Of a stretch of DNA of 64,000 nucleotides, positions 50,114 to 53,522 are shown piece after piece. Made by a program: the position numbers and the translations under genes. This DNA comes from Halobacterium sp. CBA1132 (GTDB taxonomy: Archaea; Halobacteriota; Halobacteria; Halobacteriales; Halobacteriaceae), in NCBI RefSeq assembly GCF_001485535.1, contig NZ_BCMZ01000001.1, forward strand, positions 620,001-684,000. The letters are read 5' to 3'. The notes below the pieces were generated by a model. The model was not told the DNA's origin and made no database searches. It was given only the letters and a program-made list of their open reading frames with translations. The number at the start of each line of letters is the position of its first letter. Within the stretch, counting starts at the first letter, position 1.

Positions 50114-51979
50114 CTACTTGGCAGCGTCGACGCCCTCGACGAGTTCCGCGCCCGTGATTTCGAAGCGCGCGCCACCGTCTTCGGCGTCCGCGACGGTGAC
50201 TGACCAGCCGTGCGCGTTCACGATTTCCTCGACGATGGCCAGCCCGAACCCCGTGCCGTCCTCGCTGGTCGTGTACCCGTGTCCGAAGACGGCTTCGCGT
50301 TCGTCCTCGGGAATCCCGGGGCCGTCGTCCGCGACGTAGAATCCCTCGTCGAGCGTGCCCACGCGAACCGTGACGTTCTCGCCGGCGTGCTCGACGCTGT
50401 TCCGGAAGAGGTTCTCGAACACCTGCTTGAGGCGGTTCCGGTCGCCGCGAACGGCGAACTCCTCGACCACGTCCAGTGTCGCGGTCTCGCTGGCGACGCG
50501 CTCCCAGCACTGCTCGACGACCTCGCTCACGGCGACGCGCTCGCGGTCGGAAACCGCCTGCCCCTCGCGCGCGAGCGTCAGCGTGTCCTCGATGAGCGTC
50601 TCCATTCGTTCGAGCGCGTCCGCGACCGCGTCGAGGTGTTCACTGTCGCTGTCCTCGCGAACGAATTCCAAGCGCCCGCTCGCGACGTTCAGCGGCGCTC
50701 GAAGGTCGTGGGAGACGATGGTCGCGAACTCCTCGAGGCGTTCGTTCTGTCGCTCCAGTTCTCTCGTGCGCTCGCGCAGTCGACGCTCGGACTCCAAGCG
50801 CGTGAGCGCCTCCCGAGCGTGGCCCGCGAGCAACTCCGCCAACTCCCGGTCGGTCGAATCGAACGCCGCCGGCTCCCGCGAGACCGCCTGAAACGTCCCG
50901 ATATTCGCAATCGGCGTCGTCAACGCCGACCGGTACTCGGGGTCCGCGGGCGTAATCTCGTGCTCCCGGAGGTCGTCGGCGACGATGGTCTCCTGTCGCT
51001 CGTACGCCCGCGTCGCGAACGTGTCCTCGTCCAGCGGCGTCACCTCCCAGTAGCCCTCCGTGTCCGAGTCCAGCGACCACGCCGCCTGCACGAGCTCGTC
51101 GTCCCTGCAGATGTCCACCGCTACCAAGTCGAAATCGAGGATGTCCTCGGCGGCGTCCACGAGAATCTCGTACACCTCGCCGTCCCTGTCCGCCGTCTCC
51201 AAGTCAGTCGCCGCGTCGTGCAGCGCCGCCAGCGCCTGCCCGCGCTCGCGGTCCTGCTTCACGTCTCGGACTGTGCAGACGAGCTCGTCGCGCTCGGTCA
51301 ACGCCAGCGTGTGGTCCTCGACGAACGTCTCGCCGTCCGCGCGCAGCCCGGGCGTCTGCCCGCTCCACACGCCCTCCTCGTGGACTGTCGGGAGAATCTC
51401 GTCCTCGACGCGCGACACCGCGTCGTCGGGGTACAGGATTCGCCAGTGCTCGCCGACGAGTTCGTCGGGCTCGTAGCCGTAGAGGTCGGCGTACGCTTCG
51501 TTCACGTACATGAACTCGCCGTCCGCGTCGAGGATGCTGATTCCCTCCTTCGCGGCCTCGATGGCGTCCAACTGCCGCTGCCGCTGGGACTTCGCGCGCG
51601 CCGTGTCGACGTAGTTCAGCACGCGGTTCGCCAGAATCGTGTACTGCTCGGTGCCGGCCTCCTTCTGGAGGTAGTCGCTCGCGCCCGCCGAGATGGCTTC
51701 GCTCGCGACCTCCTCGCTGCCCTTCCCCGTGAAGAGGATGAACGGGAGGTCGGGGTACTGCTCGCGGACGGCTTCCAGGAACTCGATGCCGTTCTTCTCC
51801 GGCATGTCGAAGTCGGAGACGACGCAGTCGACGTCGTCCGAGAGCATCGCGTGCGCTTCGCTGGCGTTCGTGGCGGTCACGACCTCGATTCGGTCGTCCT
51901 CGCGTTCGAGGAACTCGCCGGCCATCTCCGCGAACCCCGGCTCGTCGTCGACGTGGAGGACGCGGATGGAGTCGGTCAT
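50114..51979 (-). CDS. Hybrid receiver-PAS-GAF-histidine kinase
   Basis: A 621-aa cytosolic signalling protein. A receiver domain occupies about 1-120 (LHVDDEPG; phosphoacceptor in VVSDFDMP). It is followed by PAS (130-245; GEFMYVNEAYADLYGYEP), GAF (250-395) and HisKA (VSHDLRAPLN near residue 420, His phosphorylated). HATPase has N box FENLFRNSVEHAG, DDGPGIP and DGTGFGLAI. No membrane helix, so it senses a cytosolic ligand or another kinase through the receiver. ATG 51979 is used; an in-frame GTG two codons earlier exists. Confidence 0.9.
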   Translation of the reverse strand: MTDSIRVLHVDDEPGFAEMAGEFLEREDDRIEVVTATNASEAHAMLSDDVDCVVSDFDMPEKNGIEFLEAVREQYPDLPFILFTGKGSEEVASEAISAGASDYLQKEAGTEQYTILANRVLNYVDTARAKSQRQRQLDAIEAAKEGISILDADGEFMYVNEAYADLYGYEPDELVGEHWRILYPDDAVSRVEDEILPTVHEEGVWSGQTPGLRADGETFVEDHTLALTERDELVCTVRDVKQDRERGQALAALHDAATDLETADRDGEVYEILVDAAEDILDFDLVAVDICRDDELVQAAWSLDSDTEGYWEVTPLDEDTFATRAYERQETIVADDLREHEITPADPEYRSALTTPIANIGTFQAVSREPAAFDSTDRELAELLAGHAREALTRLESERRLRERTRELERQNERLEEFATIVSHDLRAPLNVASGRLEFVREDSDSEHLDAVADALERMETLIEDTLTLAREGQAVSDRERVAVSEVVEQCWERVASETATLDVVEEFAVRGDRNRLKQVFENLFRNSVEHAGENVTVRVGTLDEGFYVADDGPGIPEDEREAVFGHGYTTSEDGTGFGLAIVEEIVNAHGWSVTVADAEDGGARFEITGAELVEGVDAAK

Positions 51980-52154
51980 TACCACGACTACGGGCTACAG
52001 ATTAACGGGTTTGCCGGTTCGCTCGGTTGGAAGCCCGACACCCCTTTAGTTCCTCAGGTCGCTGCGAAACTCGCGGCTCCGGGTCCGGTTCGTCACTGTG
52101 CTACTGGTCGAAGTAGTGGAGGATGGCCCGCCAAAAGTGCAAGAAATTTGACAA

Positions 52155-52227
52155 TAGCCCTGGGCAGATTCGAACTGCCGTCATGGGCTCCAAAGGCCCA
52201 TATGATTGGCCGCTACACCACAGGGCT
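52155..52227 (-). tRNA. tRNA-Gln (TTG)
   Basis: A 73-nt tRNA on the minus strand. Acceptor arms AGCCCTG and CAGGGCT pair fully, with A discriminator. The anticodon stem TGGGC/GCCCA encloses loop CTTTGGA with anticodon TTG. The T arm is GGCAG-TTCGAAT-CTGCC. Downstream on the minus strand a T-rich stretch (ATTTCTTGCACTTTTGG) should terminate it. Confidence 0.94.
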
Positions 52228-52275
52228 GCATCAAGAATTCAGGGTTCCGATTTAATATGTATTGCGAGACGCGGA

Positions 52276-52998
52276 TTACGATGGCGGGAGGAGTTCCATG
52301 TTTCCGTGCTCGGCGTACGCGTGACAGCTCTTGCAGAGCGCGATGAGATTGTCGACAGTATGCGCGTTCTGCGGGTCGTCGAACGTCCGTACGGGTTTGA
52401 TGTGATGCACGTCCGGGTTCTGGCCGAGTTCGCGTGCTGTGGCCCCGCACTTCTGACAGCGGTAGTCGTCCCGTTCGAGCGCTTTCCGTCGAACTTCTCG
52501 CCACCGGCCGTTGTAGACGGCTTCCCCGTCCCCGTACTGGTCTGACATCCACGCGTTCTGGCAGTCGTTACTGCAGAACCGGCCGTGCCCTTGGCGTCTG
52601 TTGCATTCGAGGACCACCATCGGCTCGTCGCAGTAGTCACACGTCCGTTCGATTCGTTCGACGTCGACTGTTTCGGCGTAGGGAGTCCCGAGGAATTCGT
52701 CCGCCTCAGCGACGCAATCCGAACAGTAGACACCGTCCTTGTTCGAGGGATAGTAGTCGAAGGTGTCGCCGCACTGCTTGCAGTCGGTCGTCTCTTTGGC
52801 GCCGCTGTAGTTCCCGTTTTTCTCTCCTGCCTGTGAGTAGCAGTCGTCGCAGTACGTGCGCCGGGATTTCGGGTCGTAGAACTCGGTGCCGCAGTCGGCA
52901 CAGGTCCGGTTCGGGAGTGGGTCGCCGTGGACTTTCGTGTGGTGCTGGCGTGTCCCCTGCTCCGTCGAAAGCGTCTTCCCGCAGGTCGGGCAGTCCAT
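52276..52998 (-). CDS. C2H2-zinc-ribbon-HNH nuclease-like protein
   Basis: A 240-aa protein packed with metal knuckles. A C2H2 finger (C3, C6, H19 or H20, H24) comes first. Zinc-ribbon pairs follow at C33/C36-C50/C53, C73/C76-C92/C95 and C120/C123-C142/C146. The HNH core is C181/C184 with PDVHHIKPVRTF and NLIALCKSCHAYAE. The catalytic His is in DVHH. It is likely a DNA-cutting endonuclease. It lies 48 bp upstream of tRNA-Gln in lower-GC DNA and shares its strand. It looks like an acquired or selfish element. Target unknown. Confidence 0.8.
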   Translation of the reverse strand: MDCPTCGKTLSTEQGTRQHHTKVHGDPLPNRTCADCGTEFYDPKSRRTYCDDCYSQAGEKNGNYSGAKETTDCKQCGDTFDYYPSNKDGVYCSDCVAEADEFLGTPYAETVDVERIERTCDYCDEPMVVLECNRRQGHGRFCSNDCQNAWMSDQYGDGEAVYNGRWREVRRKALERDDYRCQKCGATARELGQNPDVHHIKPVRTFDDPQNAHTVDNLIALCKSCHAYAEHGNMELLPPS

Positions 52999-53050: not shown

Positions 53051-53485
53051 TCAGTCGTCGGCTTCGATGCCTTCCTCGACGAGCAGGCCGCAGGCGTCGG
53101 CTTCCGCGTCGAAGCACTCCGGACACTGCGGCTCGCGGTCGATAATCATGTCGAGGCGGTCGGCGACCGTCTCGTCGATGACGGGCTCCAGTTGCCGGGC
53201 CTCAGCGCGGAAGTCGTCGACGTCGAGGACGTTCGCGAGGAAGCGTTCGAGGATGCAGTACGTCTGCAGCGCCTCGCGGGCGCGGGCTTCGCCGTCGTCG
53301 GTGACAGTCGCGCCCTTGTACTTCTCGTGGGCGACGAGCCCGCGCTCCTCGAGTTTCCCCACCATCTCGTTGACGCTCGCCGGGCTGACGCCGAGGCGGT
53401 CGGCGAGCTCGCCGGTCGCCGCCGGGCCGTCCTCGAGCTGCTCGACGAGGAAAATCGTCTTCAGGTACTGGTCGGCAGTGTTCAC
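53051..53485 (-). CDS. DtxR-family regulator with atypical metal site
   Basis: A 144-aa protein with a winged helix (TADQYLKTIFLVEQ; LGVSPASVNEMVGKLEERGLVAHEKYKG) and dimerisation domain but no SH3 domain. The residue matching MntR Asp8/DtxR Met10 is Gln. The usual His in the dimerisation helix is Cys (TYCILERFL), and EHH is EPV. It has a C-terminal CPECFDAEADAC tail. GTG 53485 is the start: an ideal Shine-Dalgarno GGAGGTG lies six bases upstream. It is downstream of the ferritin-like gene and near sufBCD, so iron or Fe-S control is likely. Confidence 0.83.
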   Translation of the reverse strand: MNTADQYLKTIFLVEQLEDGPAATGELADRLGVSPASVNEMVGKLEERGLVAHEKYKGATVTDDGEARAREALQTYCILERFLANVLDVDDFRAEARQLEPVIDETVADRLDMIIDREPQCPECFDAEADACGLLVEEGIEADD

Positions 53486-53522
53486 GCGACACACCTCCGC
53501 TGTGGGGTCATCTGTTTCGTGC

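Follow-up and report, generated by a model that had tools for sequence, protein, structure and literature searches.

A probable homing endonuclease beside tRNA-Gln in Halobacteria: linkage to tRNA genes and exchange of its C-terminal half together with tRNA intron state

Introduction

In bacteriophage T4, mobA and a 50-nt bypassed sequence form one mobile cassette. In cyanophage S-PM2 the gene of the free-standing endonuclease F-CphI adjoins the intron-bearing gene psbA, a case termed collaborative homing (PMC6083498). T4 mobA, as presented in PMC3014915 and PMC2988022, encodes an HNH free-standing homing nuclease; it lies beside the split topoisomerase genes 39/60 and adjoins a short insertion over which expression jumps. 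The same phage carries SegB, a free-standing homing endonuclease encoded between tRNA genes and targeting that region (PMC2988022).

As for archaea, HNH endonucleases are mentioned among the genes near tRNA clusters (PMC6333295), and the account in PMC4090602 discusses what keeps introns in archaeal tRNA genes as an open matter, one proposal being protection from integrating elements. In the open-licence literature on HNH and homing endonucleases and on tRNA genes and introns, covered through titles and the openings of abstracts, we found no paper describing a tRNA-linked HNH family of Halobacteria.

Here we report on an HNH gene located next to tRNA-Gln in a 64,000-nt stretch of Halobacterium sp. 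CBA1132 (hereafter the window). We propose that its product is probably a free-standing, sequence-specific HNH homing endonuclease targeting the neighbouring tRNA-Gln gene or its edge.

Results

The locus comprises the following features, the names of the two flanking genes coming from reading of the sequence and not from a family search:

50114..51985, minus strand: sensor-kinase-like gene, the flank on the other side
52155..52227, minus strand: tRNA-Gln(TTG), intronless; the presumed target neighbour
52228..52275, minus strand: 48-bp spacer between the HNH gene and tRNA-Gln, with an AT-rich, promoter-like stretch presumably serving the tRNA
52276..52998, minus strand: HNH nuclease gene, 240 aa, ATG start, type A of the tRNA-Gln group (ORF, Pfam and conservation)
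52321..52458, minus strand: HNH core, residues 181-226 (Pfam and conservation)
52501..52560, minus strand: short linker, residues 147-166, lacking the NUMOD3-like stretch of intron-linked relatives
52561..52641, minus strand: Cys4 ribbon 3, residues 120-146 (conservation in homologues)
52714..52782, minus strand: Cys4 ribbon 2, residues 73-95, with the exchange junction near its end
52840..52902, minus strand: Cys4 ribbon 1, residues 33-53 (conservation in homologues)
52927..52992, minus strand: C2H2 finger, residues 3-24 (conservation in homologues)
53051..53494, minus strand: dtxR-like gene, a conserved neighbour of the site whether this is occupied or empty

The first-pass annotation had noted an HNH core, a C2H2 finger and three CxxC ribbons within 240 aa, encoded 48 bp upstream of tRNA-Gln in AT-richer DNA. 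Pfam and the conservation across 60 homologues confirmed this architecture, and the G+C content over the gene was 57-62% against about 65-69% on either side (500-base windows). The HNH domain matched PF01844 (E=5.3e-8; 33.3 bits, the cut-off being 21.4), and the best profile match of the protein was PHROG 1271, HNH endonucleases (8.8e-32, residues 60-233). Invariant or at least 90% conserved were C3, C6, H19/H20 and H24 of the finger; C33/C36..C53 of ribbon 1, with the exception of C50; C73/C76..C92/C95 of ribbon 2; C120/C123..C142/C146 of ribbon 3; and C181/C184, H198-H199, N217, C222/C225 and H226 of the HNH centre. As H198-H199, N217 and H226 were invariant, the residues of the HNH motif are intact; one more Cys4 site is part of the HNH fold itself. 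The finger and the three ribbons appear to form a separate, modular region predicted to bind DNA. An AlphaFold2 model had a pLDDT of 84 and a pTM of only 0.36, so that the local folds are credible but their arrangement is not. Foldseek returned no match in the PDB at E<=0.001, the best being McrA at 0.027. The only full-length match of the tRNA-Gln(TTG) gene in its own genome was itself.

Other identities were considered and rejected. The match to the RNA-guided nuclease IscB covered residues 147-235 only, with 36.8 bits against an NCBIfam cut-off of 175, and those to Zorya ZorE and Septu PtuB (PADLOC, NCBIfam) were limited to about the same residues. In place of Zorya or Septu partner genes, the flanks hold genes that are, by homology, conserved chromosomal neighbours.

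Gene order is largely kept in the genus of the window, namely sufD, ferritin-like gene, dtxR, HNH gene (where present), tRNA-Gln and kinase (names by reading). Comparison of the tRNA-Gln locus, which the first-pass annotation had proposed as a check, revealed a patchy distribution: the HNH gene accompanies an intronless tRNA-Gln in G000, G003 and G011 and an intron-bearing one in G001, G004, G010 and G012, and it is absent from the syntenic site in five congeners (G002, G005, G007 and G008, intronless; G006, with intron). The gene is thus optional between conserved neighbours; presence at the same place in all relatives, with the G+C of the surroundings, is not what we found. Between the window genome and G004, dtxR is 99% identical and the HNH gene 59%. 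The allele closest to that of the window, in G011 (locus L008), lacks about 20 codons in frame and has thereby lost the linker and the last part of ribbon 3. Integrase-driven integration at the tRNA seems unlikely; no integrase was noticed in the flanks compared between occupied and empty sites.

Remnants of the nuclease, without a proper gene, lay beside an intron-bearing tRNA-Gln in seven genomes (G148, G161, G260, G314, G339, G345 and G400), all of which come from 29 picked beforehand for uncertain status. No clear remnant was seen at 33 further intron-bearing and 20 intronless loci devoid of HNH; with this weak contrast and the prior selection, we do not take the remnants as proof of past invasion. 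At six intron loci (L381-L383, L385, L390 and L391) matches falling in the untranslated N-terminal extension of stop-to-stop queries were set aside. In the search of 391 genomes, at least 11 family rows among the matches listed carried in-frame stops.

The family is common. A relative of the window protein was present in 183 of 391 Halobacteria genomes (E<=1e-15), which contradicts the earlier view of the protein as unusual in archaea; of 59 relatives, 43 had some match, many of them confined to the HNH core. A tRNA gene was located within 400 bp of 149 of the 150 fetched homologues scoring at least 100 bits (ARAGORN, introns allowed), the sole exception being L015 (160 bits), 535 bp from tRNA-Arg. 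For loci from named GTDB genomes, which overlap this set and include many of the same species, the figure was 79/80, with tRNA-His at 32 loci and tRNA-Gln(TTG), assigned by sequence pattern, at 47. Several intron-bearing tRNA-Gln genes misnamed by ARAGORN as Lys, Stop, Glu or Pro were relabelled from sequence. Among weaker matches, L020 (79 bits) and L022 (66 bits) have no tRNA within 400 bp, nor have eight of the 15 fetched matches below 60 bits (L026-L030 and L165-L167), the other seven belonging to a second architecture beside tRNA-Glu(TTC). A further weak relative with Cys-rich ribbons and HNH, L169 of G031, converges with tRNA-Val(TAC), from which its end is 8 bp away. One haloarchaeal-type pair of HNH and tRNA-Gln (L283) was found on a 3.1-kb contig labelled Candidatus Sumerlaeota, which is probably mis-binned.

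Clades of the homologue tree match tRNA-Gln(TTG), tRNA-His or tRNA-Glu(CTC), the tRNA label changing 10 times against a shuffled mean of 60.7 (132 homologues kept, 28 of 160 rows having been lost to trimming). The window genome itself carries a second member, L164, beside tRNA-His. In the tRNA-Gln clade the gene is 5' of the tRNA on the same strand; members at tRNA-His lie on its 3' side, mostly on the same strand and in some cases convergent, and the three at tRNA-Glu(CTC) are on the 3' side and convergent. This variation in side and orientation among clades fits a mechanism acting in cis on DNA better than an operon, and it gives no support to co-transcription with tRNA-Gln, suggested in the first-pass annotation, as the reason for the linkage. 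Likewise, HNH-free G002 has a promoter-like stretch before its tRNA nearly the same as that of HNH-bearing G004.

The first-pass annotation had suggested a search beside other tRNAs and phage genes. Relatives were also found in haloviruses next to terminase: in HVTV-1 (L360, 918-3624) the gene of the terminase large subunit is flanked on both sides by an HNH gene, and one of these two is related to the window protein. A scan of viral contigs with the single window protein gave no match.

The tRNA-Gln(TTG) pattern was intronless in 208 and intron-bearing in 152 of 391 genomes, and the nucleases next to it split into type A, which includes that of the window, and type B. All 61 type B loci scored had an intron. 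Of 29 type A loci, 9 had one and 20 were intronless; the figures were 35 and 44 for genomes without nuclease, and 7 and 0 for remnants. These counts cover 176 genomes, typed by hand, of the 34 genera with at least one tRNA-Gln nuclease; they omit genomes matching neither pattern (G009 and G271 among the genera used), include G137 as type B without a fetched sequence and G001 as scored by ARAGORN, and rest on pattern searches that miss long or altered introns. Some genomes counted as HNH-free (e.g. G093, G146 and G150) have a family match whose position is not listed; two others of this kind, G255 and G076, were fetched and had none at tRNA-Gln.

Stratified by genus, type B differed in intron state from loci without nuclease (p=5e-8) and from type A (p=1e-9), while type A showed no correlation with intron state relative to loci without nuclease (p=0.18). 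In the nine genera harbouring both types, every type A was intronless and every type B intron-bearing. A rule by which HNH means intron is therefore false for type A (9/29 with intron), and the 35 intron-bearing, HNH-free genomes of the same genera count against the homing reading.

NUMOD3 is a motif of homing endonucleases. The intron, about 30 nt in most type B loci, goes with a difference in the protein: the linker between ribbon 3 and HNH was long in 62 of 65 parsed intron-linked proteins and short in 18/18 intronless ones, and a NUMOD3-like stretch was present at 63 of the 65 parsed intron-bearing loci and absent from all 18 intronless ones. In the long-linker examples inspected this is a GxxHHQW stretch whose resemblance to NUMOD3 was judged by eye. 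L057 and L061 lack the stretch, L074 has it but was shortened by the parser, and seven loci were not parsed.

Nuclease half and intron state are exchanged together. On the tree of the N-terminal part (residues 1-95, 88 rows) the intron state changed 16 times against 17.4 in shuffles; on that of the C-terminal part (residues 96-240, 90 rows) it changed 2 times against 18.3, and none of 500 shuffles gave a value as low. With equal numbers of columns there were 16 changes for the N-terminal part vs 3-6 for the C-terminal one, and five sub-windows along the protein gave 15, 14, 5, 6 and 5. As the two trees come from the same genes, their difference implies that the intron signal is not simply host phylogeny and that it starts near residue 95. 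At the DNA level (60-nt bins), the window and G004 are 85-100% identical over the upstream flank and the first 300 nt of the HNH gene, and 43-71% from there to the tRNA. The C-terminal half was 51-62% identical in 18 within-genus pairs of types A and B, two of which have unlike upstream flanks (50 and 53%), and 75-91% in five same-type pairs; the pair G393/G386 is too fragmentary to weigh. Part of this linkage of the C-terminal half to the tRNA is expected from distance alone.

Repeat units of about 55-70 nt were seen immediately ahead of tRNA-Gln, with as many as three in tandem (35 unique units). Most of them open with a copy of the initial 12 nt of the tRNA; a hairpin follows, with compensatory changes in its stem pairs, and then a segment complementary to the 5' end of the tRNA. 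Examples are L073, L075, L077, L095, L098-L104, L113-L116, L119, L122, L123, L126, L127, L130, L131, L189, L201 and L007, as well as the HNH-free loci L034, L080 and L081; the window locus showed none. A search of 14 genomes gave, in 11 of them, a strong copy (E<=1e-9) at the tRNA-Gln locus and none elsewhere. Apart from the tRNA, Rfam gave no match at the gathering score on L077 and L034.

The second architecture, at tRNA-Glu(TTC), consists in the member scanned of an HTH-like start, NUMOD3 (3.9e-11, above the Pfam cut-off) and HNH. Strong matches (E<1e-35) occurred in 18 of 282 genomes, always beside tRNA-Glu(TTC); four of these tRNAs, named Stop or Arg by ARAGORN, match the tRNA-Glu intron pattern. 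That intron-bearing pattern was present in 68/391 genomes, 46 of them in one genus. A nuclease was found at 11 of the 30 intron loci fetched from the 68 (L220-L249), and at 0/8 of those fetched from the 46-genome genus. Because the intron accompanied the nuclease in 9 of the 18 strong-match genomes, this group is only partly positive as a second test of nuclease-intron coupling.

Discussion

Homing endonuclease behaviour is what we see in a gene that sits beside its presumed target, on a side and in an orientation that depend on the clade, and that changes hands along with the target allele. We propose that the zinc modules would bind the locus and the HNH domain would nick or cut alleles without the cassette, so that repair from the donor would copy both the nuclease and the tRNA allele next to it. 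In type B, the intron would split the DNA target and protect the donor, as in collaborative homing, and, being spliced out of the RNA, would leave the tRNA functional. The intron alters the DNA and the pre-tRNA but not the mature tRNA, which makes DNA the likelier target. The window copy, a type A protein on an intronless tRNA and without the NUMOD3-like linker stretch, would have to be protected otherwise; the target of type A may be alleles with the intron, or another site in the tRNA or its flank. The 40 nt of the D-arm and anticodon are identical in G003, which has an HNH gene and no intron, and in HNH-free G002 and G005, and this intact stretch alone cannot be the type A target.

Between the selfish and the defence nuclease contemplated in the first-pass annotation, the data favour the former, through the strict tRNA linkage, the uneven occurrence with vacant sites, the decay of some copies, NUMOD3 in the sister group and the halovirus relatives next to terminase. 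Defence found no direct support, the PADLOC matches being to the HNH core only. It could nevertheless be argued that the nuclease serves the host as a guard, cutting invading viruses or plasmids in which tRNA-Gln or attachment-site sequences occur, with the host tRNA gene protected by its intron or sequence. In 23 of 24 intact pairs dN/dS was 0.02-0.17 (the remaining pair was saturated), and such purifying selection would be consistent with a domesticated host function as well; moreover, tRNA genes serve as sites of integration, against which introns have been proposed to act as a block (Randau and Soll, cited in PMC4090602). However, a defence gene acting in trans need not sit at a distance of a few hundred bp or less from its target, nor swap with the tRNA allele, and the patchiness, the decayed copies and PADLOC results confined to the HNH core also speak against this explanation, which we consider unlikely.

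It is less probable still that the gene is a passive hitch-hiker in tRNA flanks that tolerate insertions, its co-variation with the intron reflecting physical linkage in recombination tracts. The C-terminal half is the one closest to the tRNA, and a conversion tract would include the two; yet this proposal does not account for the specificity of clades for isoacceptors, for two different DNA-binding architectures at tRNAs, for the lack of any type B without intron among the 61 scored, or for a linker stretch whose presence follows the intron state.

PtuB is the HNH part of Septu. That the protein cleaves tRNA-Gln itself, as Septu reportedly cleaves tRNA-Tyr (PMC13096335), would agree with the weak PtuB matches to the HNH core, but it is very improbable, given that the intron makes no difference to the mature tRNA, so that the coupling would be purposeless, and that tRNA cleavage gives no reason for the gene linkage.

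The homing endonuclease reading can be extended, although tentatively and with a greater chance of being wrong than right, to two rival nuclease-tRNA cassettes contesting the tRNA-Gln(UUG) gene in Halobacteria: type B would carry the intron and cut intronless alleles, and the short-linker type of the window would sit with intronless alleles and cut intron-bearing ones, intron gain and loss being driven by selfish nucleases and not by tRNA function.

Our results tie the intron state of a tRNA gene across an archaeal class to one half of an adjacent nuclease gene. This nuclease represents a concrete, testable selective agent for tRNA introns, and may help explain why they come and go. Collaborative homing, described for phage group I introns, would then apply to tRNA introns of cellular genomes too. 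In addition, the family provides nucleases for which distinct tRNA-gene specificities are predicted.

With respect to known systems, halovirus HVTV-1 gene 111 encodes an HNH protein 31.9% identical to that of the window over 97%, but it is viral and lies beside terminase rather than a tRNA. SegB shares the position by tRNA genes and differs in belonging to the GIY-YIG family and in residing in a phage tRNA cluster, with no intron. With mobA the likeness is that of an HNH nuclease adjoining a short insertion; there, however, the context is a phage protein gene and ribosome bypass, and mobA is apparently defective (PMC3014915). The F-CphI/psbA pair involves a phage group I intron and an Endo VII motif (PMC6083498), unlike the archaeal chromosomes, short tRNA intron and zinc-ribbon HNH protein studied here, whose cleavage activity we infer and whose window locus is intronless. 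As in that pair, an intron always accompanies the type B nuclease, as if needed against self-cleavage, and by this analogy the coupling seen in type B would fit a prediction of collaborative homing, here with an archaeal tRNA intron.
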